From positions 1 to 43,919 of the forward strand of contig JBFLYA010000005.1 of NCBI GenBank assembly GCA_040757115.1: 43,919 nucleotides of DNA, in the 5' to 3' direction. The translations under genes and the position numbers were made by a program. Source of the stretch: a bacterium (GTDB lineage Bacteria; UBA9089; CG2-30-40-21; SBAY01). Under the pieces are notes generated by a model, which ran no database searches, was not told where the DNA came from, and was given only the letters and a program-made list of their open reading frames with translations. The first letter of the stretch is position 1; each line of letters opens with the position of its first letter. Of this stretch, positions 4,745 through 43,640 are shown one piece after another.

Positions 4745-5089
4745 CTAATACTCAATCACTGCGGCAATCGCTACGACAATTGATTTCATAACTACTGGGG
4801 AAATGATGCCCAGTTTCTGAACAAATCGTTGAGTATCAACACCACGTAGTTGTAAGGTGTCAACAGCTGATGTCTTTGTTAAGCCGTTTATGCTATCTGG
4901 CATCAGTTTAACATGCCAGACATTTTGTGCGAAGTAATCCTTCCACTCAGTTAGTGGAGCAACCAACCTAATGGGCAACATACCAACGGAATCAGAACTG
5001 ACAACAACAACTGGACGAGTCTTTCGGATTTCCGCACCAATGGTTGGGTCGAGACTTACTAACCAAATCTCACCACGATTAATGCTCAT
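4745..5089 (-). CDS. MazF/PemK-family endoribonuclease toxin
   Basis: A 114-residue protein of typical MazF length. The start INRGEIWLVSLDPTIGAEIRK and the block RPVVVVSSD match the MazF barrel; RPVVVVS carries the conserved Arg of the catalytic site, and SAVDTLQLRGVD corresponds to the conserved T/S-D segment. The family cleaves single-stranded mRNA at short specific sequences; the specificity here cannot be predicted. Its start overlaps the end of the upstream antitoxin-like gene by 11 bp, the usual arrangement of a type II toxin-antitoxin operon with coupled translation. Confidence 0.88.
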   Translation of the reverse strand: MSINRGEIWLVSLDPTIGAEIRKTRPVVVVSSDSVGMLPIRLVAPLTEWKDYFAQNVWHVKLMPDSINGLTKTSAVDTLQLRGVDTQRFVQKLGIISPVVMKSIVVAIAAVIEY

Positions 5090-11717: not shown

Positions 11718-11957
11718 GTAAGCGTTCAGCCACAGAGGCACAGACTTCACAGAGAATTAAGGAAATTAGCCACAAATGGATACGAATTAACCTCTGACAT
11801 CCCATAAATGTAGTGCGAACCTTTAAGTTCGCCTTTTGGCTTGCCAGAAGCGAATCTAACGCCTCGCACTACAAATCTTTTTGTATTTGTGTTCATTCGT
11901 GGTTATATATTCCCTCTGTGTTCTCTGTGACTCTGTGGCTATATCCTGAACGGTTAC
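11718..11957. mobile_element. 240-bp GTAAC-family element with exact 8-bp target duplication
   Basis: Termini GTAAGCGTTCA (11718-11728) and TGAACGGTTAC (11947-11957) are inverted repeats; inside them are inverted 'CCACAGAGGCACAG' words and a hairpin of AGTGCGA...TCGCACT type. The element is flanked by AATTAAAT on both sides (11710-11717 and 11958-11965), an exact 8-bp duplication. The left copy contains the ymdB stop codon. No ORF is inside. A longer relative in opposite orientation is at 25852-26322. Confidence 0.8.
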
Positions 11958-13340: not shown

Positions 13341-13575
13341 GTAACCGTTGAGGTAATCCTTTACCGCAGAGACGCAGAGAAACAGAGAGGAAGATATCTT
13401 TTTTTTTCGCGTTTTTCGGTGTTTAAAAAGACTGAAAGTAAGTATTAAAAGATTAATAAACAACGAAAGACCTGAAATGCACACAAAAAAGGAAATTTCT
13501 GTCTCTGGTGAATAGATTTTAATTTTTTCTCTGTGTCTGTGCGTCTGTGCGGTGAAAAAAAGGAAAACTATTCAC
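13341..13575. repeat. Element of 'CCGCAGAGACGCAGAG' class abutting the beta-helix gene
   Basis: Starts GTAACCGTTGAGG, with ACCGCAGAGACGCAGAGA at 13363-13380, and ends with the inverted words TCTGTGCGTCTGTGCGGTGA (about 13535-13554), then AACTATTCAC (13566-13575) directly before the ATG of the beta-helix gene. The interior holds no intact ORF. A GTG-initiated extension of the downstream gene into this repeat is therefore not credible. Confidence 0.55.
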
Positions 13576-16500
13576 ATGAAAAAGATTCTTAAATATTTAA
13601 CAGTAGGTATTATTTTAGGTATAAATATAGGGGTTTATGCGGCTGATTTGTATGTGCCAGGGTCATATACAACTATCCAGTCTGCAGTAAATACCGCAAC
13701 AACTGGGGATACCATTTATGTTGGAACTGGAACTTACAATGAGGCACTCTATATCAACAAAAGTATTGCCCTGGTTGGAGCAGGAGCGGATGTTTGTACA
13801 ATTACCACAACTGGGCTGGGATATGTAAATGTAGTAACCTTTGACGGTACGGGTGGAACAATAACAGGCTTCACCATCAGAGAAACATATATGTATGGAA
13901 TATATTGCATAAATAATGCAAATCCTGTAATCACCAACAACACAATATCAGGAAATAATTATGATGGTATTTTCTGTTTCGATTCTTCTCCAACCATTAC
14001 CAACAACATAATCTCAGGAAATCGTTATAAGGGTATCTATTGCGATTCTTCCTCCCCATTCATCACAAACAACATCATTGTCCGAAATAGATCTCATGGC
14101 ATCTACTGTGATAATTCTTCCCCATCTACTATGAACAATATTATTACAGAAAATGGAATAAGTAAGGATTCCTATGGTATCTATGTCCGCTCTGGTAATC
14201 CTACTGTTGATTACAACTGTGTCTGGGGAAATGGTTCTAATACTACCAATAATTACTACAATTGTGTTGTTGGATTATACAATATATCCCTTGACCCTCA
14301 ATTTATAGGGCAAGATGATTATCACCTTAGTTCTAATTCTCTCTGTATTGATGCAGGTTCAAACACAGCCCCAGGGATTCCAGAAAAAGATAAGGATGGA
14401 AACACAAGGATAGTCAATGACAGGGTTGACATAGGTGCCTATGAATATCAAGGAAGCCCTACAGGTCTATATTCTCTCTCGGGAACAGTTACTGATACAA
14501 ATGGCAATCCCATTTCCAATGCATTGGTAAAAGTAATCTCTGAGATTTTAATAAAGAGTCCAGCAAAGAGTCCAGGTAGAGGAGAGGCAATTACAGACAA
14601 TAATGGTAGTTTTACAATTAGCAATCTTCCTTTTGGAACATATACCATTCGGGCATCATCTGTAGGTTATTACCAATCTTACAGGAATCTTCTTATAAAT
14701 GGCCAAATCTCTAATATAGAATTTAAAATGGTTTCTACCCAATCACTTACCATTTATGTGAATAGGGACAATACTTCAGGGACAGAGAATGGTTCATTAG
14801 AATTTCCTTACACGACTATTAATAGAGGTGTTGATAATTGCTTTAAAGGAGGAACAGTTTTTGTTTCTTCTGGAATTTATAATGAGGCAATTTATATTAA
14901 CAAAAGTATTAGTTTAATTGGACAAGGGGCAAATGTTTGTACAATTACCACAACCGGGCTGGGATATGTAAATGCAGTAACCTTTGATGGCGCAGGTGGA
15001 ACAATAACCGGTTTCACCATCAGAGAAGCAGGCTGGGATGGAATATATTGCATAAATAATGCAAATCCAACCATTACCAACAACACAATTTCAGAAAGTA
15101 GATTGCTGGGTGTTCACTGCAACAATTCTTCTCCAACCATTACCAATAACACAATCTCAAAGAATGGGGGTAATGGTGGTATCAGATGCTGCAACAATTC
15201 TTCTCCAACCATTACCAATAATATAATATCGGGGAATGGCAGGCATGGCATCTCCTGCGAATACTCCTCCCCAACCATCACCAATAATACAATTTCAGAG
15301 AATGTGGAGGATGGTATTCTCTGTTTCAATTCTTCTCCAACCATCACCAACAATACAATCTTAAAGAATTTGAATTATGGTATCCACTGCAAATATAATT
15401 CTTTTCCAACCATCACCAACAACATAATATCAGGAAATCGTTATGCGGGCATCTATTGCGATTATTCCTCCTCCCCATTCATCACAAACAACATCATCGT
15501 CCGAAATAGATATCATGGCATCTACTGTAATAATTCTTCCCCATCTATTATGAACAATATTATTACAGAAAATGGAACAAGTACGGATTCCTATGGTATC
15601 TATGTCTGCTCTGGTAATCCTTCTGTTGATTACAACTGTGTCTGGGGAAATGGTTCTACTACTACCAATAATTACTACAATTGTGTTGTTGGATTATACA
15701 ATATATCCTTTGACCCTCAATTTATAGGGCAAGATGATTATCACCTTAGTTCTAAATCTCTCTGTATTGATGCAGGTTCAAACACAGCCCCAGGGATTCC
15801 AGAAAAAGATAAGGATGGAAACCCAAGGATAATCAATGACAGGGTTGACATAGGTGCCTATGAATATCAAGGAAGCCCTACAGGTCTATATTCTATCTCG
15901 GGAACACTTACTGATACAAATGGCAATCCAATTTCCAATGCATTGGTAAAAGTAATCTCTGATATTTTAATAAAGAGTCCAGTAAAGAGTCCATGTAGAG
16001 GAGAGGCAATTACAGACAATAATGGTAGTTTTACAATTAGCAATCTTCCTTTTGGAACATACACCATTCGGGCATCATCTGTAGGTTATTACCAATTTTA
16101 CAGGAACCTTCTTATAAATGGCCAAATCTCTAATATAGAATTTAAAATGGTTTCTACCCAATCACTTACCATTTATGTGAATAAGGATAATACTTCAGGG
16201 ACAGAGAATGGTTCATTAGAATCTCCTTACACGAGTATTAATAGAGGTGTCGATAGTTGCTTTGAAGGAGGAACAATTCTTGTTCCTCCTGGAATTTATA
16301 ATGAGTCAGTTTATATCAACAAAAGTATTAGTTTAATTGGAGCAGGGGCAAATGTTTGTACAATTACCACAACTGGGCTGGGATATGTAAGTGCAGTAAT
16401 CTTTGATGGCGCAGGTGGAACAATAACCGGTTTCACCATCAGAGAAGCAGGCTGGGATGGAATATATTGCATAAATAATGCAAATCCAACCATTACCAAC

Positions 16501-18057
16501 AACACAATTTCAAAAAGTAGCATGGTGGGTGTCTACTGCTACAATTCTTCTCCAACCATCACCAATAACAGAATTTCAGAGAATTGGGATGATGGTATCT
16601 TGTGCTACAATAATTCCTCTCCAACCATTACCAATAACACAATTTCAGAAAATAAATGGGAGGGTATCAGGTGCAATAATTCCTCTCCAACTATCACTAA
16701 CAACATCATCGTCCGAACTGGAACAACAAGTTTAAACTCTTATGGTATCTATGTAATATCTGGCAGTCCAATCATTGATTATAACAATCTCTGGAATAAT
16801 GGGTTAACTGGTAGCCAAAATTATTGCAATTGCTCTCCTGGGACCCATGACATCTCTGAGAATCCTCGATTTATAAGTGAAACAGATTTCCATCTTACCC
16901 CATATTCACTTTGTATAGATGCAGGCTCAAATACCGCTCCAGGAATTCAAGAAAAAGACAAGGATGGCAATCCAAGAATAGTAAATGGAATAGTTGACAT
17001 TGGTGCTTATGAGTATCAAGGAACATTTACCGTGATTATCTCCTTTACCGGCTCATCTACATATTCAAACGAAAAGACCTTAACAGAAACAATAGAAGAA
17101 AGGAATTTAATGCTAACCAGTGAGGATTCAAATATAGTTTTCAATGAATTTAAGAGGATAAATATAAAGACAGGTGGATTCACAGATAGGGGGTTTTTCA
17201 AAGGAACCCTTACGATGGATAATAACAATTGCTTGTTTAAAGGTATGTCTTATCAAAAAGGAACAGTCTCATTCCTTAATGGTGTGATAGAGGGATATGC
17301 ATCAGGAATAATGGAATTAGTCTTTGAGGACTCAAGTTATACTGGCACCCTTACTTTAACCCAGATGGGGGATGAAGTCTTTTTAAGCACAAGGGCAATA
17401 AAGGGAAGTATAGAATCTTCTGAACCTGATGCATCAAATAAAACCGTAACATTAGAGCAGAAAATGATAGAAGGGGAAATTACTCTTACCTTAACTATAG
17501 TCAGGATAGAAAACGAAGGTTTTTGTGTTATTTCATATAATTCTGAAGAGGGCACGGGCGAGGGTTATGCCTATGTCAAAGAAAAGACTCTTGATGGTTT
17601 CCTTAAGAATCCAATCTATGGCTACATCTTAGCAATCCTTGAGGACCCTCCAGAGGTAACGATAACAAGGATTGACCCCCTTATGCCACCTATGGCCGAT
17701 CTGGATGTTAGAATTTGTGGTCCTGATGGGGCAAGTCCAGGCCAGATAATAACCTATGTGATTGTTCTAAGAAATGGTGGGTTAAAGGAGGCTTTTAATA
17801 GGTCTGTTGTAGCAGTTTTACCCGATGTTGAGTTTATCTCTACTTCCCCAGGTGGGATATATAGTTATCCATTCCATACCGTCCGTTGGAATCCTACTAA
17901 TATCCCTGCTAAAAGTATTATCAACTTTAATTTTCAGGTAAGAATTCCGTGGGGACTTCCTCTAGGAACTCAGATTGCCCCCACAGTCCAGATTGTTCGG
18001 ACGGATGAAAATGAAGCCTTTTATGAGGAGATGGAACTACAATGGTCAGAATATTAA
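13576..18057 (+). CDS. Large exported beta-helix protein with three helix blocks and two CarboxypepD_reg-like domains
   Basis: A 1,493-residue surface or secreted protein. I start it at ATG 13576, which gives a clean signal peptide (MKKILKYLTVGIILGINIGV, then YAADLYV) nearly the same as that of the 22486 gene. Architecture: beta-helix block A (about 25-290) of right-handed DUF1565/NosD type with coils such as NNSSPTITNNTISEN; a carboxypeptidase-regulatory-like beta-sandwich (SGTVTDTNGNPISNALVKV, about 300-390); block B; a second such sandwich; block C; then a beta-rich region and a DUF11-like domain (PGQIITYVIVLRNGG, near 1380-1480). The middle is a tandem duplication of 1,419 bp. No catalytic residues are evident; adhesion or polysaccharide binding is possible. 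The 3' end overlaps the next gene by 16 bp. Confidence 0.85.
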   Translation: MKKILKYLTVGIILGINIGVYAADLYVPGSYTTIQSAVNTATTGDTIYVGTGTYNEALYINKSIALVGAGADVCTITTTGLGYVNVVTFDGTGGTITGFTIRETYMYGIYCINNANPVITNNTISGNNYDGIFCFDSSPTITNNIISGNRYKGIYCDSSSPFITNNIIVRNRSHGIYCDNSSPSTMNNIITENGISKDSYGIYVRSGNPTVDYNCVWGNGSNTTNNYYNCVVGLYNISLDPQFIGQDDYHLSSNSLCIDAGSNTAPGIPEKDKDGNTRIVNDRVDIGAYEYQGSPTGLYSLSGTVTDTNGNPISNALVKVISEILIKSPAKSPGRGEAITDNNGSFTISNLPFGTYTIRASSVGYYQSYRNLLINGQISNIEFKMVSTQSLTIYVNRDNTSGTENGSLEFPYTTINRGVDNCFKGGTVFVSSGIYNEAIYINKSISLIGQGANVCTITTTGLGYVNAVTFDGAGGTITGFTIREAGWDGIYCINNANPTITNNTISESRLLGVHCNNSSPTITNNTISKNGGNGGIRCCNNSSPTITNNIISGNGRHGISCEYSSPTITNNTISENVEDGILCFNSSPTITNNTILKNLNYGIHCKYNSFPTITNNIISGNRYAGIYCDYSSSPFITNNIIVRNRYHGIYCNNSSPSIMNNIITENGTSTDSYGIYVCSGNPSVDYNCVWGNGSTTTNNYYNCVVGLYNISFDPQFIGQDDYHLSSKSLCIDAGSNTAPGIPEKDKDGNPRIINDRVDIGAYEYQGSPTGLYSISGTLTDTNGNPISNALVKVISDILIKSPVKSPCRGEAITDNNGSFTISNLPFGTYTIRASSVGYYQFYRNLLINGQISNIEFKMVSTQSLTIYVNKDNTSGTENGSLESPYTSINRGVDSCFEGGTILVPPGIYNESVYINKSISLIGAGANVCTITTTGLGYVSAVIFDGAGGTITGFTIREAGWDGIYCINNANPTITNNTISKSSMVGVYCYNSSPTITNNRISENWDDGILCYNNSSPTITNNTISENKWEGIRCNNSSPTITNNIIVRTGTTSLNSYGIYVISGSPIIDYNNLWNNGLTGSQNYCNCSPGTHDISENPRFISETDFHLTPYSLCIDAGSNTAPGIQEKDKDGNPRIVNGIVDIGAYEYQGTFTVIISFTGSSTYSNEKTLTETIEERNLMLTSEDSNIVFNEFKRINIKTGGFTDRGFFKGTLTMDNNNCLFKGMSYQKGTVSFLNGVIEGYASGIMELVFEDSSYTGTLTLTQMGDEVFLSTRAIKGSIESSEPDASNKTVTLEQKMIEGEITLTLTIVRIENEGFCVISYNSEEGTGEGYAYVKEKTLDGFLKNPIYGYILAILEDPPEVTITRIDPLMPPMADLDVRICGPDGASPGQIITYVIVLRNGGLKEAFNRSVVAVLPDVEFISTSPGGIYSYPFHTVRWNPTNIPAKSIINFNFQVRIPWGLPLGTQIAPTVQIVRTDENEAFYEEMELQWSEY
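14041..16509 (+). repeat. In-frame 1,419-bp tandem duplication inside the beta-helix gene
   Basis: Sequence around 14041-15090 recurs at an offset of exactly 1,419 bp (473 codons) at about 15460-16509; for example 14281 matches 15700 and 14941 matches 16360. Differences are scattered single bases, so identity is high (roughly mid-90s by eye). On a finer scale each helix block contains repeats of about 60-70 bp built on TCTCCAACCAT(T/C)ACCAA. Confidence 0.85.
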
Positions 18058-22485: not shown

Positions 22486-23664
22486 ATGAAAAAGATGTTT
22501 AAATATTTAATACTATCGATTTTTTTAGGTATAAGTATAGGGGCTTATGCTGCAGATTTATATGTCCCCAGCCAATACAAAACTATCCAGAAGGCAGTGA
22601 ACAAGGCAAAGACAGGGGATAAAATTTATGTTGCCCCGGGCATTTATAAAGAGAGTATTACCATTAAAAAAGGGATTAGCCTGATAGGAATAAACCCGGA
22701 CAAATACATCATAACCTCTTCCCATCTCAAAAATGGAAATACCATTATCTTTGAAGGGAAATCTGCCAATGGGACAATCACCGGCTTTACTATAACCGGG
22801 GCAAAAGGCTTCTTAGATAGAGGTAATGGAATACTCTGTTGCGACGGAGCAAGTCCTGTGATTATGAAAAATAGGATAAAGGGGAATGAGAATGGTGGTA
22901 TTTTCTCCTGGCACTCTTCTCCGAATATTATAAAAAATATCATTTCGAAGAATAGATGTGCTGTTGACTTTTCCGATTCTGATTCAATTATTTCAAATAA
23001 TATGCTCTTGGATAACAGATTTGGAATTACTTGCTCAGAATCTTCTTTAACCATTACTAATAATACAATATCAAGAAATAGTTTGAATATTGGTAGTGAT
23101 GACTCTTCTTATATAACCATTACCAACAATCTCATCTCAGAAGGAAAGAATGGCATAGGAGGCAATAAATCTTATCTTACCATCACAAATAATACAATTG
23201 TAGGAAATAAACGAGGAGGGATCAATGTTGGAAATTCTCAGATAATCATTATGAACAACATCATTGCCAAGAATGGAAAGAACATTGCACAGAATGGAAA
23301 AGGGGAAAGAAAGACAAGATGTGGAATTGATTGCCGAAATTCAGATATTAAAGGAGATTTCAACTGTTTTTTTGACAATGGTCCAGGGATTAGAGGGACA
23401 CAGAATTATTGTTTGGCTCCTCCTAAACCCCCACAGCCTCCAGACGAGCCAGAACACTACATCTACAAATCCCATTTAGGGGCAAATGAGATTCAAAAAG
23501 ACCCAAAGTTTATCAGCGAAACTGATTTCCATCTAAAGCCATTTTCTCCTTGCATAGACAGAGGTTCAAACAAAGCCCCAAAACTTCCCAGGAAAGACAA
23601 AGATGGGAAGGAAAGGATAATCAATAAGAGGGTTGACATAGGTGCGTATGAATATTCAAAGTAA
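22486..23664 (+). CDS. Exported right-handed beta-helix protein
   Basis: A 392-residue protein with signal peptide MKKMFKYLILSIFLGISIGA and the mature start ADLYVPSQYKTIQKAVNKAK, the DUF1565-type opening of parallel beta-helix proteins. Coils with repeated N-x-I (ITNNTI, IIKNIISKN, IMNNIIAKN) run from about 75 to 270. The end, DKDGKERIINKRVDIGAYEYSK, matches the block ends of the 13576 protein, so this is a single-block paralogue. A run of proline near residue 310 (APPKPPQPPDEPEH) is an insertion. No catalytic residues are recognised. It closes the exported-protein cluster. Confidence 0.8.
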   Translation: MKKMFKYLILSIFLGISIGAYAADLYVPSQYKTIQKAVNKAKTGDKIYVAPGIYKESITIKKGISLIGINPDKYIITSSHLKNGNTIIFEGKSANGTITGFTITGAKGFLDRGNGILCCDGASPVIMKNRIKGNENGGIFSWHSSPNIIKNIISKNRCAVDFSDSDSIISNNMLLDNRFGITCSESSLTITNNTISRNSLNIGSDDSSYITITNNLISEGKNGIGGNKSYLTITNNTIVGNKRGGINVGNSQIIIMNNIIAKNGKNIAQNGKGERKTRCGIDCRNSDIKGDFNCFFDNGPGIRGTQNYCLAPPKPPQPPDEPEHYIYKSHLGANEIQKDPKFISETDFHLKPFSPCIDRGSNKAPKLPRKDKDGKERIINKRVDIGAYEYSK

Positions 23665-24192: not shown

Positions 24193-24573
24193 ATGAATAA
24201 AAAATTAGCCTTAGCAGAAGAGTTTTTGGAAGAAGGGAAACTTGAACTTAAAAGATATGAGGCGACAAAGAAGGAAACATCTTTATGGCAAGCTTGCGAA
24301 AAGGGGTGGGCTACAGCTGCCTGTGCTCTAAAGGTAGTGAATCCAAAGATTAGGCGTCATGCTGACTTCGGAAAGACCGCTACACAATTGGCTAAAGAAT
24401 ACGGCAATCTTGATTTAATGCATGGTGAAGCCTGTGGTGAAATGCTTCATCGTAGCGGTTTCTATGAACATGCGTTGGATAAAGAGGTTGTAAAAGAAGG
24501 GCTTTTTTCTATTGAAAGTTTTTTAAATTTAATAGATAACATTCTATTAAATGGAAAAAAAGAAAAAACCTAA
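24193..24573 (+). CDS. Small helical protein, HEPN/PaREP1-like
   Basis: A 126-residue all-helical protein. The first half (LALAEEFLEEGKLELKRYE, then LWQACEKGWATAACALKVV) resembles the HEPN-like fold of the PaREP1 family, in which a helix with a conserved 'AxEKxWxAxxxAxKA' pattern is central. No RX4-6H RNase motif is obvious (a possible HRSGFYEH lies near residue 90), so enzymatic activity is doubtful. It has its own consensus promoter and a good ribosome site. The 41-bp repeat starts five bases after the stop codon. Family assignment is tentative. Confidence 0.55.
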   Translation: MNKKLALAEEFLEEGKLELKRYEATKKETSLWQACEKGWATAACALKVVNPKIRRHADFGKTATQLAKEYGNLDLMHGEACGEMLHRSGFYEHALDKEVVKEGLFSIESFLNLIDNILLNGKKEKT

Positions 24574-34916: not shown

Positions 34917-34966
34917 AATTGATTAATTATACATTAAATATTTTTACCTGTCAACTTTTTTTCTTC

Positions 34967-34995
34967 TTGACTTTTTATAAAATTTATGATAATGT
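34967..34995 (+). promoter_or_regulatory. Weak promoter candidate of the STAND gene
   Basis: TTGACT at 34967-34972, 17 bp, TAATGT at 34990-34995. The -35 and spacing match other promoters here but the -10 is poor. If used, the transcript would start at or near the ATG at 35006 and be essentially leaderless; there is no good ribosome site before that ATG. Confidence 0.35.
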
Positions 34996-35005
34996 AGTAA
35001 TCGAA

Positions 35006-38000
35006 ATGGTTATTGATTTAGAACAAAAGGATAGTTTAAGATTTATACTTAAACAGAAATCCAGAGATTATTATTTTAAATTCTTTTCTATTCTTAATGA
35101 ACTTAATAAGATTCAGACAGGCGGAGATGTAGTCTATCATGCTCAACATGGAGTTAAACATTGTGAAATCGTAGAACAAAACCTAAATGACCTACTCCCG
35201 GCTACCCTCAAGCGTAAAATGAATCATAAGGAGATATTTTGTATGCTATTGGCGGTTTGGTTTCATGATGTTGGAGAAATATTTGATGAAAAAGGTAAAG
35301 GATATACGCATATCAGAAGTCATGATTATATTTATAAACATTATGAAGATTGGAAACTTGATGAATCTAATGCACATTTCATTACACAAATTTTAAAGGA
35401 ATCCGCAAAAGAAACAGAAGAAAAAATAATATTAGAAGATGACCGAACTTTAGTTAGGTTTTTAGCTTATTTACTTCGGCTATCAGATAAATTAGATATT
35501 GGAAATAGCAGTGTGCCTCGCGAACTTCTTACCCCCTGGAAAAGGTCATTTAAAGACCACACCGTGCTATCTCTTTTAAAGGAAAGATTTGATGTTGATT
35601 TGAAAATTGATTCAGAACACTGGATAATTTGTGCCTATTTAAACCCAAAATCAGAACTACTTGCTAACACAGAACTTATAAATGATATTTATGATAAGAT
35701 ACAAATAAGATTAAATAAAGACCTTGATTCTTTCAAAGAAGTTTTTTATCAAAATGGCCTGGGCTATCAAAAAATTAAACTCATTCTTTCATCAAAAATT
35801 AAAGAAAAGGAAGTTTTGGTGAAAAACAAACCCCTCCAAATTTCCCCTTACAAATTCCTTCATTATTATGAAACTTACGATAAAGATTTATTTTGGGGAC
35901 GAGAAGAGGATATTTCTAAATTTGTAGGTCATATTTTGATTAATAAATTAGTTGTTATCTATGGAGATGCCTTGATAGGAAAGACATCTTTGATTAAAGC
36001 CGGAATTATTCCAAAATTATCCGAAGGGAATATTGCTATTTACATCAATTGTAACCGTGACCCGTTGAATTTGATTAAAGAAGAGGTTGAAAAAGAATTC
36101 AAACGGGAGAGAATCCGAAGCTTCAAATTAGATAAATCATTGTCATTAGTAGATTTTTTCAAAAATATCGATTTACCTTATTCTATTATTATCTTTATTG
36201 ACCATTTTGAGAATTTCTTTAAACAGGTAGGTAAAGAGGCACAGGAAGAATTTATAAATGAAATAGCAACCTGCACTTATGCCGATAAACCTCTAGTTAA
36301 ATTTATATTTGCCATACAAAAAGATCTTTTTGTTCATTTAGGCAGTTTTAAGGATAGATTACCGGAGCTATTTCAGAACGCCTTTGAATTAACAAAACTT
36401 ACTGAATCTCAGGCATTAGAGGCAATTGAATGTCCAGCCAAATTGTTTAATATTGAATATGCCAGAGAACTTTTAGAGGCATTAATCTGGGATATTAGAG
36501 ATGAGCAAGATTTAATCCAGCCAATTCATATTCAAATCGTATGTAATAAATTAGTCCAAACCCTGAATCCTGAGTTGTTAAGGGATATATTACCCCAAAC
36601 AATAAGTTATGAATGGTATGATGACCTGGGTGGAGTTCAAGGGATTTTATCAGATTACCTTGAAGATACATTAAGAAAAATGAACGAGCTATCTGTGGAT
36701 GAAAAAGAGCAGGCAAAAGGTATTTTGAAGGTAATGGTTACTTCTTTTGACTCACATCCAGAAATGAATATCCAGCAAATCTGCTCTTTTATTAAAATTG
36801 AAGAAGATAAATTAAATATGATATTAGATTGTTTAGTAAATTATTCCCTACTGCGAAAAGTAAAAAAGGATACCTATGAATTAATTTCCAATTATTTAAT
36901 TAATAGTATTACTAAAAAGTGGCTAACTCGAAAAGATATAGAATTACGGCAGATTATTGAAAATATCAATAAGGCATTAGATGATTGGCGGGCACATCAT
37001 TGGCGAATGGATATTAACTTATTGAGTAAGGCATATCTATATCGAGAAGATTTACCTGCATCAGAAGAAACATTAGAACTTTTACTGCGTAGTTCTCTGG
37101 AACACAATTTCCCGGCGTGGTTCTGGATTCGTAAGATTGAACCTGACGAACTCAAGAAAGTGCTTGTTGATGCTATTAAAACAGCAGATAGTAATGGGAT
37201 AAAGAGAATTATTGATATTTTAGACAAAGATGGCATTTTAGCCTTAGACCATCTTATTCTTAGATTAAATGACCCGGTAACAGAGGTAAGAAAAGCCGTT
37301 ATAGAGGCGTTAGGTTGTCTGAAGGACCCAAGAACAATAGACTATCTTTTGCAAAGATTAAGTGATTCAGATTTAGATGTTCGAGATGGGACGATAAAAG
37401 CCTTATGTAATTTTGGTAGTCCAAGGATATTAGAGATATTTATTTCTCAATTAGAGAATTCAGATTGGCGAGTAAGAAAGGCGGCCGCAGATGGTTTAGG
37501 GATTTTAAAAGCATCTAAATCGTTGGAATTATTATTTACAAAAATCAATGACCCGGACTCTGAGGTTAGAAAATCAGTGGTGACGGCTCTGGGTAAACTG
37601 GGTAATCTCAAAGCCCAAACACCACTTATTCGTCGATTGAAGGATTCTCACGCGGAGGTAAGAGAGGCGGCGGCTAAAGCACTTGGGAATCTAAGTAGTG
37701 TGTCTGCGGTTGATGACCTTTTATTATGTTTTAATGATAAGGTTTGGCGAGTAAGAGAAGCCGCGGCTATTGCCTTAGGTAAATTAAAGGATGAAAAGGC
37801 ATTAGAGCCTTTATTAGAAATGGCGAATGACCCGGATACCGATGTTCGTAAGGCAGTTGCTGAGGCACTCGGTAATTTACAGACACCACGAACGATGCAA
37901 ATCCTGTTTAATATGCTTGCGGAATCTGAATGGTGGAAAAAAGAAATAGCCACTATTGCCCTTGGTAAATCAAAAGATACAAAGGCGTTAGAGCTTTTTC

Positions 38001-38398
38001 TGGAAGGATTAGATGACCCTGATTGGCGAGTTAGAGTGACAATGGCTAATGGATTAAAATTACTAAGTATAACTGATACAAAAATAGAAGATGCTATAAT
38101 TGAAAGACTTCGTGACCCACATGAAGAAGTTCGAAAAATAGCTATTATTGCCTTAGAAAACTTAGGCACAGAAAAGGCTATCACACCAATTATATCCTGT
38201 CTTAATGATTCTTATGAACCTGTCCGAATAGCCTGCGTTCAAACGCTTGGGAGTATTGGCAATTTAGATGTCTTAGAACCTTTGCTGAATGGAATCAATG
38301 ATAGCTCTCCAGAAGTTAAAAATACCTGCCTGGTAGCATTACAAAAAATTGATGAAAAATTCTATCGCAAAAATATTTTGGATAGTAGTGAGGTGTGA
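35006..38398 (+). CDS. HD domain - nSTAND1 ATPase - HEAT-repeat protein (STAND-type signalling/defence candidate)
   Basis: A 1,130-residue cytoplasmic protein. I start at ATG 35006, as the upstream 29 codons contain the promoter. Residues about 40-165 form an HD-like domain: HAQHGVKH, the doublet in WFHDVGEIF (about 86) and RLSDKLDIG supply the metal ligands. Residues about 285-560 are a STAND NTPase: PYKFLHYYETYDKDLFWGRE in shortened form ('LFWGRE'), Walker A GDALIGKTSL (about 319-328) and Walker B IIIFIDHFENFF (about 395-406), as in nSTAND1. From about 740 to 1125 there are about twelve HEAT/PBS-lyase repeats (DPDSEVRKSVVTALGKLGN type). Layout effector-switch-sensor fits STAND immune ATPases. 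The catalytic role of the HD part is inferred. It stands alone on its strand. Confidence 0.8.
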   Translation: MVIDLEQKDSLRFILKQKSRDYYFKFFSILNELNKIQTGGDVVYHAQHGVKHCEIVEQNLNDLLPATLKRKMNHKEIFCMLLAVWFHDVGEIFDEKGKGYTHIRSHDYIYKHYEDWKLDESNAHFITQILKESAKETEEKIILEDDRTLVRFLAYLLRLSDKLDIGNSSVPRELLTPWKRSFKDHTVLSLLKERFDVDLKIDSEHWIICAYLNPKSELLANTELINDIYDKIQIRLNKDLDSFKEVFYQNGLGYQKIKLILSSKIKEKEVLVKNKPLQISPYKFLHYYETYDKDLFWGREEDISKFVGHILINKLVVIYGDALIGKTSLIKAGIIPKLSEGNIAIYINCNRDPLNLIKEEVEKEFKRERIRSFKLDKSLSLVDFFKNIDLPYSIIIFIDHFENFFKQVGKEAQEEFINEIATCTYADKPLVKFIFAIQKDLFVHLGSFKDRLPELFQNAFELTKLTESQALEAIECPAKLFNIEYARELLEALIWDIRDEQDLIQPIHIQIVCNKLVQTLNPELLRDILPQTISYEWYDDLGGVQGILSDYLEDTLRKMNELSVDEKEQAKGILKVMVTSFDSHPEMNIQQICSFIKIEEDKLNMILDCLVNYSLLRKVKKDTYELISNYLINSITKKWLTRKDIELRQIIENINKALDDWRAHHWRMDINLLSKAYLYREDLPASEETLELLLRSSLEHNFPAWFWIRKIEPDELKKVLVDAIKTADSNGIKRIIDILDKDGILALDHLILRLNDPVTEVRKAVIEALGCLKDPRTIDYLLQRLSDSDLDVRDGTIKALCNFGSPRILEIFISQLENSDWRVRKAAADGLGILKASKSLELLFTKINDPDSEVRKSVVTALGKLGNLKAQTPLIRRLKDSHAEVREAAAKALGNLSSVSAVDDLLLCFNDKVWRVREAAAIALGKLKDEKALEPLLEMANDPDTDVRKAVAEALGNLQTPRTMQILFNMLAESEWWKKEIATIALGKSKDTKALELFLEGLDDPDWRVRVTMANGLKLLSITDTKIEDAIIERLRDPHEEVRKIAIIALENLGTEKAITPIISCLNDSYEPVRIACVQTLGSIGNLDVLEPLLNGINDSSPEVKNTCLVALQKIDEKFYRKNILDSSEV

Positions 38399-38503: not shown

Positions 38504-41215
38504 ATGATAGAATTACCAAAAGAAAAATATACTGGTAAAATTGGTGAAGTCGTTATTGGCAAAGATTTAAAGGTTGGCGGCGAAAATACCTTTCCTTTTT
38601 ATACCTTCGAAGGGGATTTGCCAAATGAACCCAGAATCGCATTGGAAGTCTATGACATCGAGCCAAAAGACTGGCCACAGGCTTGCCTTGAGCCATTTAA
38701 AGAGGTGGTTTCTGACCCGGTTGCCTGGGCAAAAAGATGCGTAGAATACGGGGCGGATATGATTTGTGTTCAATTGATTGGCACTGACCCAACCGCTGAG
38801 AATAAATCCGCGGAAGAAGCCGCAGAACTTTGTAAAAAAATCGCCGAGGCAGTGAATATTCCTATCCTTGTCTGGGGAAGCGGGAAAATAGAAAAGGATG
38901 CAGAGGTATTGAAAAAGGTCGCTGATGCCACTCAAGGTAAAAATCTGGTTTTAGCCCCGGTTCAGGAAAATAATTATAAAACAATCGGTGCGGTCGCCAT
39001 TGGTTATAAAAATAAAATCTCTGCCTCTGCTCCGATGGATGTGAATTTATCCAAACAACTCAATATCCTTCTTTCAAATCTTGGTGTTGCGGATGACCAG
39101 ATTATCATTGACCCCACTGCCGCTTCACTCGGATATGGAATTGAATATGTCTATTCAATTATCGAGCGAGCTAAACAGGCCGCTCTTACCCAAAATGATG
39201 TAAAATTGCAAATGCCCATTGTGGTTAATCTTGGCAAAGAGGCATGGAAGGTAAAAGAAGTAAAAATACCCGAATCTTATGAGACAAAACTGGGCAATAT
39301 TGGAGATGCCAGAGAAAGAGGTATCCTCTGGGAAGCCATCTCGGCTATGGGTTTGCTAATCGCCGGGGCAGATATTATTATCATCCGGCATCCAGAGACT
39401 CTAAAATTAGTTCGCAAGATTACAAATAAATTATTGGGTAAGGAAATAGAAAAAACTGCTGTGGAAAAACCAAAAGAAGAAATTAAACCCACGCCAGAAA
39501 TACCAAAACCTGCACTCCCAACAGATGTGTCTGAAGTGATTTTAAAACTTACGCAAGAGATAGAAATCCTGAAGAAACGATTAGACGAACATAAACCAGC
39601 TACGGTTAAGATTATTATTGAAGGTCCGGCAGAGGTCATAATCGAAAAAGTGGGTGAAGAAAAACCAACCGTTCCCTTTGTTGAGATGCCTGTAAAAAGA
39701 AAATCAGTCATTTCTCTTAAAGAAGTGATTATCGATGGGGTAGTTGAAAAATTTAGCTATGACTACGAGGCACGAGTTGAGGGACAAAAGGTCTCCTGCA
39801 AATTTGGAACAACAGGTGTTTGTTGTCGGCTCTGTGCTATGGGACCCTGCCGAATCTCACCAAAAACCGATAAAGGCTTATGCGGGGCAACTCCAGATAC
39901 GATTGCGGCAAGAAATCTTATCCGAATGATTGCTGTTGGCGCCTCATTATTTACTGATTATACTCGTTCTGCAGTAAAAAGAGTAGAATCAGAAGAGATA
40001 AAAACTTTTGCAGAAGAATTTGGCAGACATTCCGGAGAACCAGGATTTCTTAAATCTGTCCCGAAAAAAATATACAATATCTGGCAAAAAATGGATATTC
40101 TTCCCCGCGGCATCGACCGTGAAATTGTTGAATTGATGCATCGAACCCATATGGGTGTTGACCAGGATTTTAATAATCTCTTGCAGTGTGGTTTGCGAGT
40201 TGCCCTCTCCTCTGGTCTGGGAAGTACATTTATCGGCTCACAGGTTAAAGAGGCATTATCCCCACCAAAACAATTATCCACATTTTCACTTAATTTTATA
40301 GAAAAAGATGCCTTCAATATTATTGTGCCTGTGGAGTCACTCGACGCCTTTTATCAAGCCGCTGAAGAAACTGAGATAAAAACCCTTGCCAGACAATTGG
40401 GCATTCCAAAGATAAAAATTATAAATTTAGAAGATGTCATCAGCCAGGAAATGGCAATGATGACGGGCGCGATTGATGTCATTGTGGCTGATGAAACAAC
40501 ACCAATTTCCGCATTACTCATTGCCTCCTGCTACCATACCCGCGCATTTACACTAACTTCAATAGATATTGCCGGCGTAAAGAAGATGGATAATGCCAGT
40601 TCTATCTTAAAAAAGGCATTAGCCAACATCCAGAATCGCGGGGCAATGAACATCACGGAAAATGAACTGGAAATTACCTCAAAACTCCCGACTAATACAG
40701 ACAAAATAAAGGGAATAGCGATTGTTTTAAACTGCAAAGGAGACTATACGGAAACGATTAAGGAGCTTATTACCAATGATATTCTCGTTTTGCATGCGGG
40801 ATGTGGGAGTTTGGAATTGGCTAAAAACGGTTTGTTCAATAAGTCTGCTGTTCAGTTTGCCGGGAAAAATCTTGCCGCCTTTTGTGAGCAAGAGAATATT
40901 TCACCGTGCATTTATGTAGGCACCTGTATGGACATATCAAAGGTGATAGTGTCAATGATGTCTTTGGAGAATATTTTAGCAATCATCCCGGAATGGATAG
41001 GTGAAAAGGCGATTGCCCAGGCATTTTTTATGCTTGGTTGTGGACTACCAGTTATTCTGGGCAAGGATTTCTGGGTAAGTGGGACTAAAGAATTAGTTAA
41101 TCTCCTTTACAAAGATAACCCACTTGGGACAAGATTTATTTATAAAGAAGATAACATAGCCCAGGAAACATTAAATCTTATAAACCAGGAAACATTAAAT
41201 CTTATAAAAATGTAA
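38504..41215 (+). CDS. CdhD/AcsD (CODH/ACS delta subunit) fused to a degenerate Ni-CO dehydrogenase-like domain
   Basis: A 903-residue fusion. Residues 1-310 are the corrinoid iron-sulfur protein small subunit of the acetyl-CoA synthase complex (FYTFEGDLPNEPRIALEVYD, GTDPTAENKS, DPTAASLGYG, IIRHPET). A Pro/Lys-rich linker with a short coiled coil follows (311-425). Residues 426-895 are CooS-like. The FeS cysteines are kept: Cys432, 440, 441, 444, 449, 460. At the Ni site three ligands are kept (Cys744, 767 and 808) and EWIGEKAIA is intact, but the His of HGHEP is replaced (NIIVPVESL), the GMCCT segment is deleted and the Cys of DVQC is missing, so CO oxidation is unlikely. It may wire the corrinoid protein to electrons or dock it onto CooS. 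The tail is a 24-bp tandem duplication. Confidence 0.85.
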   Translation: MIELPKEKYTGKIGEVVIGKDLKVGGENTFPFYTFEGDLPNEPRIALEVYDIEPKDWPQACLEPFKEVVSDPVAWAKRCVEYGADMICVQLIGTDPTAENKSAEEAAELCKKIAEAVNIPILVWGSGKIEKDAEVLKKVADATQGKNLVLAPVQENNYKTIGAVAIGYKNKISASAPMDVNLSKQLNILLSNLGVADDQIIIDPTAASLGYGIEYVYSIIERAKQAALTQNDVKLQMPIVVNLGKEAWKVKEVKIPESYETKLGNIGDARERGILWEAISAMGLLIAGADIIIIRHPETLKLVRKITNKLLGKEIEKTAVEKPKEEIKPTPEIPKPALPTDVSEVILKLTQEIEILKKRLDEHKPATVKIIIEGPAEVIIEKVGEEKPTVPFVEMPVKRKSVISLKEVIIDGVVEKFSYDYEARVEGQKVSCKFGTTGVCCRLCAMGPCRISPKTDKGLCGATPDTIAARNLIRMIAVGASLFTDYTRSAVKRVESEEIKTFAEEFGRHSGEPGFLKSVPKKIYNIWQKMDILPRGIDREIVELMHRTHMGVDQDFNNLLQCGLRVALSSGLGSTFIGSQVKEALSPPKQLSTFSLNFIEKDAFNIIVPVESLDAFYQAAEETEIKTLARQLGIPKIKIINLEDVISQEMAMMTGAIDVIVADETTPISALLIASCYHTRAFTLTSIDIAGVKKMDNASSILKKALANIQNRGAMNITENELEITSKLPTNTDKIKGIAIVLNCKGDYTETIKELITNDILVLHAGCGSLELAKNGLFNKSAVQFAGKNLAAFCEQENISPCIYVGTCMDISKVIVSMMSLENILAIIPEWIGEKAIAQAFFMLGCGLPVILGKDFWVSGTKELVNLLYKDNPLGTRFIYKEDNIAQETLNLINQETLNLIKM
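41161..41208 (+). repeat. 24-bp perfect tandem duplication at the 3' end of the CdhD-fusion gene
   Basis: CCAGGAAACATTAAATCTTA plus TAAA occurs twice in succession (41161-41184, 41185-41208) and encodes NQETLNLI twice. The stop codon lies within GTAAGCGTTCA (41212-41222), an orphan copy of the GTAAC-family terminus. Confidence 0.85.
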
Positions 41216-41547: not shown

Positions 41548-41672
41548 TGGGTTTGAGGGTTTAATGGTTCAGGTGAAATCAGGTTGAAGCCTGCGGCTAC
41601 CAGCCTTCCCGAGTCCCGAACCCCGAGTCCCGATTTTCAGGTAAACATTTAAACTGATTGGAGGTAAAAATA

Positions 41673-43640
41673 GTGGTTGTAACAACAGAAAAAGAAAAAA
41701 AAGTAGAAAAAAAGATTGATGAGTTAACCGTAGATAAAGCATCGATGGAAATGCTACAAAAAGCTAGAACGGCTAACATTGAGACCGTGTGGGATAGACA
41801 CGAGAAGATGAGTCCGAGGTGTAAATTTGGAGAAGGGGGAATATGTTGTCGTGAATGCGGAAAAGGTCCCTGTCGAATTACGCCTAAGGCACCACAGGGT
41901 GTTTGTGGTGCAGATGACGGTTTGATTGCCGCAAGAAATCTGGCTAAAATGACCGTGGGTGGCTCTGCCGCTCACTCAGACCACGGTCGCGCTGTTGCTG
42001 AAATATTCCTCGCCGCGGCTAAAGGGGAAGCCCCTGGCTACCAGATTAAAGATGAAATAAGACTTCATCAGGTCGCAAAATTATTTGGGATAAACACCGT
42101 AGAAAAGACAAATCAGGAAATTGCCATTGAAGTTGGCGAACTTGCCTTATCAGAATTTGGTAAGCAAGATGACGAATTAACATTCATTAAACGAGCTCCG
42201 GAAAAAAGACAGGAAATCTGGAAAAAACTGGGGATTGTCCCAGGAGGTATAGACCGCGAGGTAGTTTATCTAATGCATCAGATTCATACCGGCGTAAGTG
42301 ATGATGTTGAGGATATTTCTTTAGCCAATTTCAGGTGTAGTCTGGCAGATGGTTGGGGAGGGTCAATGATTGCGACTGAACTTCAAGATGTCCTTTTTGG
42401 TGCCCCTGTCCCCGTGAGGTCACGGGCCAACCTGGGTGTGCTTAAAGAAGATGAGGTAAATATCATTGTTCATGGACATGAACCGATATTATCTGAACTG
42501 GTCGTTGCCGTTTCTTCAGAGCCAGAAATGATTCAATTAGCAAAAGAGCAAGGAGCAAAAGGTATAAATATTGCAGGAATGTGTTGCACGGCAAATGAAA
42601 TCCTTATGCGACACGGCATTCTGCTTGCAGGTAATTTCTTACAACAAGAACTGGCAATTATGACTGGCGCGGTGGAGGCGATGATTGTGGATGTCCAATG
42701 TATTATGCAATCCCTGACTCCGGTTGCCTCCTGTTTTCATACCAAAATAATTACCACCTCAAAAAAGGCAAAAATTCCAGGTGCAATCCATATCGAGTTT
42801 GATGAACACGATGCCATAAATACCGCAAAAGAGATTGTTAAACGGGCTGTCTTGAATTTCAAAAATCGCAAAAAAGATGTCGTTATCCCAAAACAATCTA
42901 TGGAATTAATTGCCGGCTTTACCCATGAATATGTCAATTATATGCTTGGTGGAAGGTTTCGGGCTTCTTACCGCCCACTTAATGACAATGTTATCAATGG
43001 TCGGATAAAAGGTGTGGTTGGAATTGTGGGATGTAATAATCCAAAGGTGAAATATGATGCGGTGCATCTTGAAGTTACCAGAGAACTTATTGCCAATGAT
43101 ATTTTAGTTGTGCAGACAGGCTGTGCGGCGATAGCCTGTGCTAAGGAAGGATTATTATTACCAGAGGCCGCGGTGAAATATGCGGGTAAGGGATTAGCTG
43201 AGGTCTGTGAGGCAGTTGGTATGCCACCTGTGCTCCATTGTGGTTCCTGTGTGGATAATTCCCGCATCCTTATTGCCTGCACCGAAATGGTTCGTGAAGG
43301 TGGACTTGGGAATGATATTTCAGAATTACCTGTAGTTGGAATCGCACCAGAATGGATGTCCGAAAAGGCAATCGCCATTGGGCATTATGTTGTTGCCTCT
43401 GGAATTTTTACCATATTTGGCGTCACCTATCCTGTCATTGGCAGTGAATCAGCAAAAAAGATGGTTTTTGAGAAATATGGCGAGCTTGTCGATGGCAAAT
43501 TTGCTTTAGCCGTTACTCCATCAGAGATTGTCAATCTCACGATTGACCACATCAATAAAAAACGCAAGGCACTTGGAATTGATAAACCCAAAGAAAGAAT
43601 ATTGTATGATATGGAGATGAGACGAGAGCTTAAGTTTTAG
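41673..43640 (+). CDS. cooS: Ni-dependent carbon monoxide dehydrogenase catalytic subunit (CooS/AcsA)
   Basis: A 655-residue enzyme, close to the 620-675 of the family, reducing CO2 to CO for acetyl-CoA synthesis (or the reverse). D/B-cluster cysteines: C50, C58, C59, C62, C67, C78. His101/His104 lie in AAHSDHGR on the proton path. C-cluster ligands are all present: His267 in HGHEP, Cys304/305 in GMCCTANE, Cys343 in VDVQC, Cys454 in VGCNN, Cys484 in TGCAAIAC, Cys526 in CGSCVD, with Lys in EWMSEKAIA. Start GTG 41673 follows GGAGG by 8 bp; a TTG start five codons upstream would overlap that site. It follows the CdhD-fusion gene on the same strand after a repeat-filled gap. Confidence 0.95.
   Translation: MVVTTEKEKKVEKKIDELTVDKASMEMLQKARTANIETVWDRHEKMSPRCKFGEGGICCRECGKGPCRITPKAPQGVCGADDGLIAARNLAKMTVGGSAAHSDHGRAVAEIFLAAAKGEAPGYQIKDEIRLHQVAKLFGINTVEKTNQEIAIEVGELALSEFGKQDDELTFIKRAPEKRQEIWKKLGIVPGGIDREVVYLMHQIHTGVSDDVEDISLANFRCSLADGWGGSMIATELQDVLFGAPVPVRSRANLGVLKEDEVNIIVHGHEPILSELVVAVSSEPEMIQLAKEQGAKGINIAGMCCTANEILMRHGILLAGNFLQQELAIMTGAVEAMIVDVQCIMQSLTPVASCFHTKIITTSKKAKIPGAIHIEFDEHDAINTAKEIVKRAVLNFKNRKKDVVIPKQSMELIAGFTHEYVNYMLGGRFRASYRPLNDNVINGRIKGVVGIVGCNNPKVKYDAVHLEVTRELIANDILVVQTGCAAIACAKEGLLLPEAAVKYAGKGLAEVCEAVGMPPVLHCGSCVDNSRILIACTEMVREGGLGNDISELPVVGIAPEWMSEKAIAIGHYVVASGIFTIFGVTYPVIGSESAKKMVFEKYGELVDGKFALAVTPSEIVNLTIDHINKKRKALGIDKPKERILYDMEMRRELKF

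Follow-up and report, generated by a model that had tools for sequence, protein, structure and literature searches.

A protein that joins an HD-type domain, a STAND ATPase and an array of HEAT repeats raises the question of whether it is an immune sensor, as an earlier note on this DNA had proposed, or a sensor built into the cell for other purposes. Its gene lies on the forward strand of the window, that is, of the whole stretch of 43,919 nucleotides that was analysed. The data presented below indicate that a built-in cell sensor is more likely than a typical phage-defence gene.

Gene structure and the STAND ATPase module

The frame is open throughout 34919-38398 (+) and is protein-coding from the ATG at 35006, the Met from which all eight orthologues align. 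The near-leaderless start described earlier applies to the window's genus (genomes G000 and G001), where the start occurs without a Shine-Dalgarno sequence, but not to the six orthologues of other genera, in which a clear one (gagagggg, gaggtg or ggaggc) is found 6-9 bases 5' of the start. The features discussed below are as follows.

35006-38398, +: HD-CE / nSTAND1 / HEAT protein of 1130 aa, ATG start, intact ORF
35006-35791, +: N-terminal HD domain with C-terminal alpha/beta extension (residues 1-262; Pfam HD-CE at 46-174, AlphaFold)
35159-35161, +: H52, first HD ligand, invariant in 15/15 aligned HD-CE domains
35264-35269, +: H87-D88, HD signature, invariant in 15/15 aligned HD-CE domains
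35402-35404, +: S133, at the motif-IV His position; Ser/Thr in 8/8 orthologues, His in 7/7 other aligned HD-CE domains
35486-35488, +: D161, last HD ligand; Asp in 7/8 orthologues, Asn in G007
35846-37000, +: nSTAND1 ATPase (residues 281-665; Pfam PF20703, 9.5e-35)
35963-35989, +: Walker A GDALIGKTS (320-328), canonical GxxxxGKT, from the orthologue alignment
36185-36202, +: Walker B IIIFID (394-399), from the orthologue alignment
36317-36319, +: Gln438, Arg in the other six orthologues (RKDFF/RRDFF), from the orthologue alignment
37241-38365, +: about 12 HEAT repeats with a 31-residue period (residues 746-1120; Pfam, AlphaFold, repeat comparison)

In Pfam searches all three domains scored above their cut-offs, with HD-CE at residues 46-174 (E=1.9e-9, 38 bits against a cut-off of 27), nSTAND1 at 281-665 (121 bits against 27.1) and HEAT_2 across about 750-1120 (3.9e-69), which bears out both the composition and the effector-switch-sensor order read earlier from the letters: N-terminal HD, central STAND, C-terminal HEAT. 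The earlier count of about twelve repeats is fair, the AlphaFold model having about 12 helix pairs over residues 744-1128 (pLDDT mostly 85-95) and matching alpha-Rep and PP2A-A HEAT solenoids. The protein thus belongs to nSTAND1 and, as a degenerate member, to HD-CE, and likely behaves as a STAND switch.

Both nucleotide-binding motifs noticed earlier, GDALIGKTSL (320-329) and the Walker B, are present, and GxxxxGKT and FID are kept in 8/8 orthologues, with Asp399 of the Walker B (IIIFIDHFE) invariant. The suspicion that the Walker A is atypical in its A-L-I did not hold: the motif is complete in all eight, and its variable positions differ among orthologues, four of which have SGV (GDSGVGKTS or GESGVGKTS) and two PWI (GEPWIGKTS). 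A defective Walker A was accordingly ruled out, A-L-I being natural variation. An Arg following the Walker B (R-x-D-F/Y) occurs in 6/8 orthologues and is replaced by Gln in G000 and G001; because the nSTAND1 relatives L020 (FSMREDY) and L021 (FIIREDY) have it as well, this Arg at position 438 is probably the sensor Arg of nSTAND1, lost in the window's genus.

The match to nSTAND1 covers the whole module, and the protein shares with these STAND ATPases the intact Walker A and B motifs, a variable N-terminal domain and C-terminal repeats. The relatives (28-37% identity) differ in having winged-helix, SIR2 or Mrr N-termini and WD40, FGE or histidine-kinase C-termini, with no HD domain plus HEAT array, and in keeping the sensor Arg where the window's genus has Gln. 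Since the slot before nSTAND1 is occupied in these relatives by other domains (Trans_reg_C, SIR2_2 or Mrr_cat), the HD domain is very likely the output module. One of them, L020 (G003:C228:10852-11643), carries an Mrr-type nuclease ahead of an nSTAND1 with 37% identity to that of the window protein; this would be a related switch with its effector exchanged, in keeping with an effector role for the N-terminal slot. HD-CE itself is found elsewhere in front of HSP90-like ATPases, NB-ARC and nSTAND5, and at the C-terminus of a NACHT-HEAT protein (C53).

These exchanges, together with the tripartite layout, speak for an NLR/Avs-like antiphage receptor that has become fixed in the order, in which the HEAT array would bind a phage protein, nSTAND1 would oligomerise and the HD domain would deplete nucleotides or cut nucleic acid so that the cell stops: HD-CE sits on several ATPase switches (NB-ARC, nSTAND5, NACHT-HEAT, HSP90-like), and the same nSTAND1 core bears SIR2, Mrr or winged-helix N-termini. 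HD dNTPase effectors are also known in defence, as with the dGTPase CloA of Clover (PMC12265719), which is comparable in domain type as a regulated HD effector but has no STAND or HEAT part. Avs and other bacterial NLR-like antiviral STANDs share the effector-STAND-repeat sensor layout, but characterised Avs have a TPR-type sensor in place of HEAT, and they are patchy defence-island genes whereas the gene described here is core and vertical (see below). Matches to PADLOC models (E<=0.01) were confined to the HEAT region, and no known antiviral STAND model was matched. No HD-STAND-HEAT system was found in the literature, which is weak evidence given the limited literature covered, and HD domains are not mentioned in eLife 52696. 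Given also the distribution, HEAT array and HD site described in the following sections, we regard this antiphage reading as rather unlikely.

The HD domain and its ligand site

The HD domain was compared in an alignment of 15 HD-CE domains, made of the eight orthologues and seven other members. All eight orthologues pass the HD-CE (PF24391) profile cut-off, and the window protein shares with the family the H, HD and D residues and the HD fold with its C-terminal alpha/beta extension; it nevertheless scores 38 bits, against about 100-175 in typical members, and the motif-IV His is missing across the whole orthologue group, so that none of them has the complete series of ligands (H, HD, H, H, D). 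The motif-III His has no fixed position among the aligned HD domains. Hence the description of an HD domain "with its metal ligands" stands for H52, H87, D88 and D161 but not for the fifth signature His, which is Ser133. Conservation of the HD ligands and P-loop among relatives, on which the immune reading had been made to depend, is likewise partial: the P-loop and the HD core (H, HD) are kept in 8/8, but the second signature His (motif IV) is missing from all eight and the last Asp from one. Judging from the alignment, what remains (H-HD-D) is possibly a one-metal site, short of the canonical HD-CE set.

The full-length AlphaFold model is weak over this part (pLDDT 30-45), and fold comparison was made with a separate model of residues 1-262 (pLDDT 74, pTM 0.78). 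A PDB search by sequence gave no useful match. Among solved structures, the best matches to the model were the PPX/GppA C-terminal (HD-like plus alpha/beta) domains (E=5.7e-4, 255 alignment columns), followed by Rel, YpgQ and other HD hydrolases, all with modest TM-scores; for PPX/GppA the TM-score is only about 0.35 and the identity 13-15%, and the PPX catalytic N-terminal domain is absent here. On these fold matches a nucleotide-type ligand for the HD domain is a reasonable inference.

In PPX/GppA the HD-like part is regulatory, and such domains being the top fold matches is one of several points consistent with a pseudo-enzyme, in which the HD domain would serve as a nucleotide- or protein-binding scaffold on the STAND switch. 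The loss of the motif-IV His and the unfixed position of the motif-III His point the same way, as does D161N in G007, where the HD region is still under purifying selection (dN/dS 0.11). This change, however, is that of a single MAG, and the invariance of H52, H87 and D88 in all eight orthologues goes beyond what a free pseudo-enzyme would need. A pure scaffold is in our view improbable.

Distribution, neighbourhood and selection

One full-length copy was found in each of the 8/8 genomes examined of the order (Ca. Desantisbacteria), which represent three genera and two families and are all or nearly all MAGs. The orthologues are about 1123-1133 aa long and collinear save for short gaps. Identity to the window protein is 96% within the genus, 70-71% within the family and 42-43% within the order, against 98%, 80% and 67-68% for RNase Y over the same ranks; divergence thus tracks taxonomy, a pattern that points to vertical inheritance. 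When 386 genomes were searched with a profile of the HD region, the 378 outside the order gave no equivalent and only distant HD-CE matches. A wider scan of genome contigs with two peptide patterns, which can miss relatives, returned outside the order only relatives at the nSTAND1 level, and one matching record was Candidatus Desantisbacteria CG2_30_40_21. Searches of IMG/VR and phages gave no homologue, and plasmids gave none of full length, only partial matches (HEAT or nSTAND1); a mobile or viral origin was rejected on these grounds.

Other signalling and STAND genes of these genomes are distributed differently. The window's genome has three further HD-CE STAND genes (C26, C53 and C65) and G001 has one (C62), and for none of them did the remaining genomes of the order yield an equivalent HD-CE match. 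For the NACHT part of C53 a relative at 65% was seen in G003, split into two frames; for that of C109 none exceeded 33%. Overall, the other HD-STAND and NACHT-HEAT genes of the window's genome are present in 1-2/8 genomes and the window also has a class III cyclase signalling gene, which is common to the genus only; order-wide presence is therefore not trivial for signalling or STAND genes in this group. Two of these loci are of interest in themselves. L003 (G000:C53) is a NACHT-HEAT protein with a C-terminal HD-CE, hence the three parts in a different order, and its HEAT repeats are much alike. L002 (G000:C26:2219-6748) encodes HD-CE plus nSTAND2 with a frame break, then a frame with a class III nucleotide cyclase and NB-ARC, which brings HD and cyclase domains together in what looks like a single locus, with another STAND gene upstream.

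In the window's genus the gene is flanked by a TPR lipoprotein gene upstream on the opposite strand and by a CdhD-CODH fusion downstream; in the second genus (g2) by genes for a LysM-M23 peptidase and a pterin-binding enzyme; and in the second family (f2) by that of a small unnamed protein, with various genes beyond. McsA/McsB/ClpC, named from sequence, occur upstream in G006, and among the neighbours in G007 is a Fic protein with SoFic-like PADLOC similarity; other PADLOC matches among neighbours are to generic ABC ATPase or TPR only. The flanks surveyed span a few kilobases in G002, G004 and G005, where contigs are short. The earlier note had held that constant housekeeping neighbours would speak against an immune role: nearest neighbours are indeed mostly housekeeping genes, but they differ between genera. 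In the flanks surveyed no defence island was found around the gene, nor any conserved partner, operon or regulon pointing to an endogenous ligand.

The CdhD-CODH gene follows on the same strand after 106-177 bp in G000 and G001, as might be expected if the protein were an AfsR/MalT-like regulator of the adjoining acetyl-CoA pathway genes (CdhD/CODH). Such a role is very improbable and was rejected, since this synteny is confined to the genus, the other genomes with flanks available having a different neighbourhood, and the Pfam search found no DNA-binding domain in the protein.

The fusion itself (38504-41215) joins CdhD, the CO dehydrogenase/acetyl-CoA synthase delta subunit, to a Ni-CODH/prismane domain in a single 903-aa ORF, and is followed by a second CODH-like gene at 41658-43640; long open frames matching both parts in G002, G009, G014 and G058 suggest that the fusion recurs. 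Elsewhere in the window, the short motif CTCTGTGNCTCTGTGG occurs at 11923 and 26295; it is a MITE-like repeat present 105 times across the genome (control 0), frequently as two inverted copies separated by about 190 bp. By eye, candidate MazF/PemK-type and HEPN-type proteins are encoded at 4745-5089 and 24193-24573, and large proteins with near-identical internal repeats of the right-handed beta-helix type (SPTITNNTIS...) at 13552-18057 and 22486-23664.

Pairwise dN/dS for within-family pairs is 0.06-0.31 in every domain (0.06-0.18 for most sufficiently diverged comparisons), and the HEAT array, at 0.12-0.25, evolves no faster than the others; all domains, HEAT included, are under purifying selection. 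Internal identity of the HEAT repeats is 32% in the first family (f1) and 46% in f2, with collinear arrays in the same register and a fixed repeat number, compared with 54% (best pair 77%) in C53 and 72% (best pair 97%) in C109. The repeats of the order-wide gene are therefore old and diverged, and those of C53 and C109 more homogenised. Such a pattern would be that expected from a fixed ligand surface and not from an arms-race sensor.

A proposed core STAND switch and its meaning

The proposal of an immune sensor is thus borne out as to layout only; vertical single-copy presence in 8/8 genomes, a non-diversifying HEAT array, housekeeping neighbours and an eroded HD site all speak against it. 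Indeed, four expectations of an accessory phage-defence gene failed here, namely patchiness, a defence neighbourhood, a diversifying sensor and an intact HD site.

We give an even chance to the protein being an order-core STAND signal ATPase with a cell-intrinsic signalling role and an HD output. At rest, the nSTAND1 module, probably ADP-bound, would be kept closed by the HEAT solenoid until that array binds an endogenous ligand or partner protein; nucleotide exchange would then let the protein open and oligomerise, clustering or exposing the N-terminal HD-CE domain. This domain would in turn serve as a phosphohydrolase with a one-metal (H-HD-D) site and a nucleotide-type substrate; where the HD site is further eroded, the output may instead be nucleotide binding. 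In this model the switching between closed and open states, the nucleotide substrate and the origin of the ligand in the cell and not in a virus are all inferred. Against the core reading, the protein evolves faster than RNase Y (43% versus 67% identity between families), defence genes are sometimes fixed in a clade, the order is represented by only eight genomes, and G007 has the Fic neighbour. A more specific version, possible but held with clearly less confidence, is that a complete NLR-like receptor has been fixed as a single-copy order core gene, where it would sense endogenous danger or homeostasis with a one-metal or pseudo-enzymatic HD output, as a bacterial counterpart of non-immune or guard-type NLRs.

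With HD-CE/nSTAND1/HEAT the tripartite STANDs gain a further combination. Phage defence is at present the usual reading of bacterial STANDs, and the core-like example described here cautions that immunity should not be called from layout alone. One genome holds accessory-like HD-STANDs, patchy and with recently amplified repeats, beside a core-like one, and therefore offers a testable case for the same architecture serving also in fixed cellular signalling.
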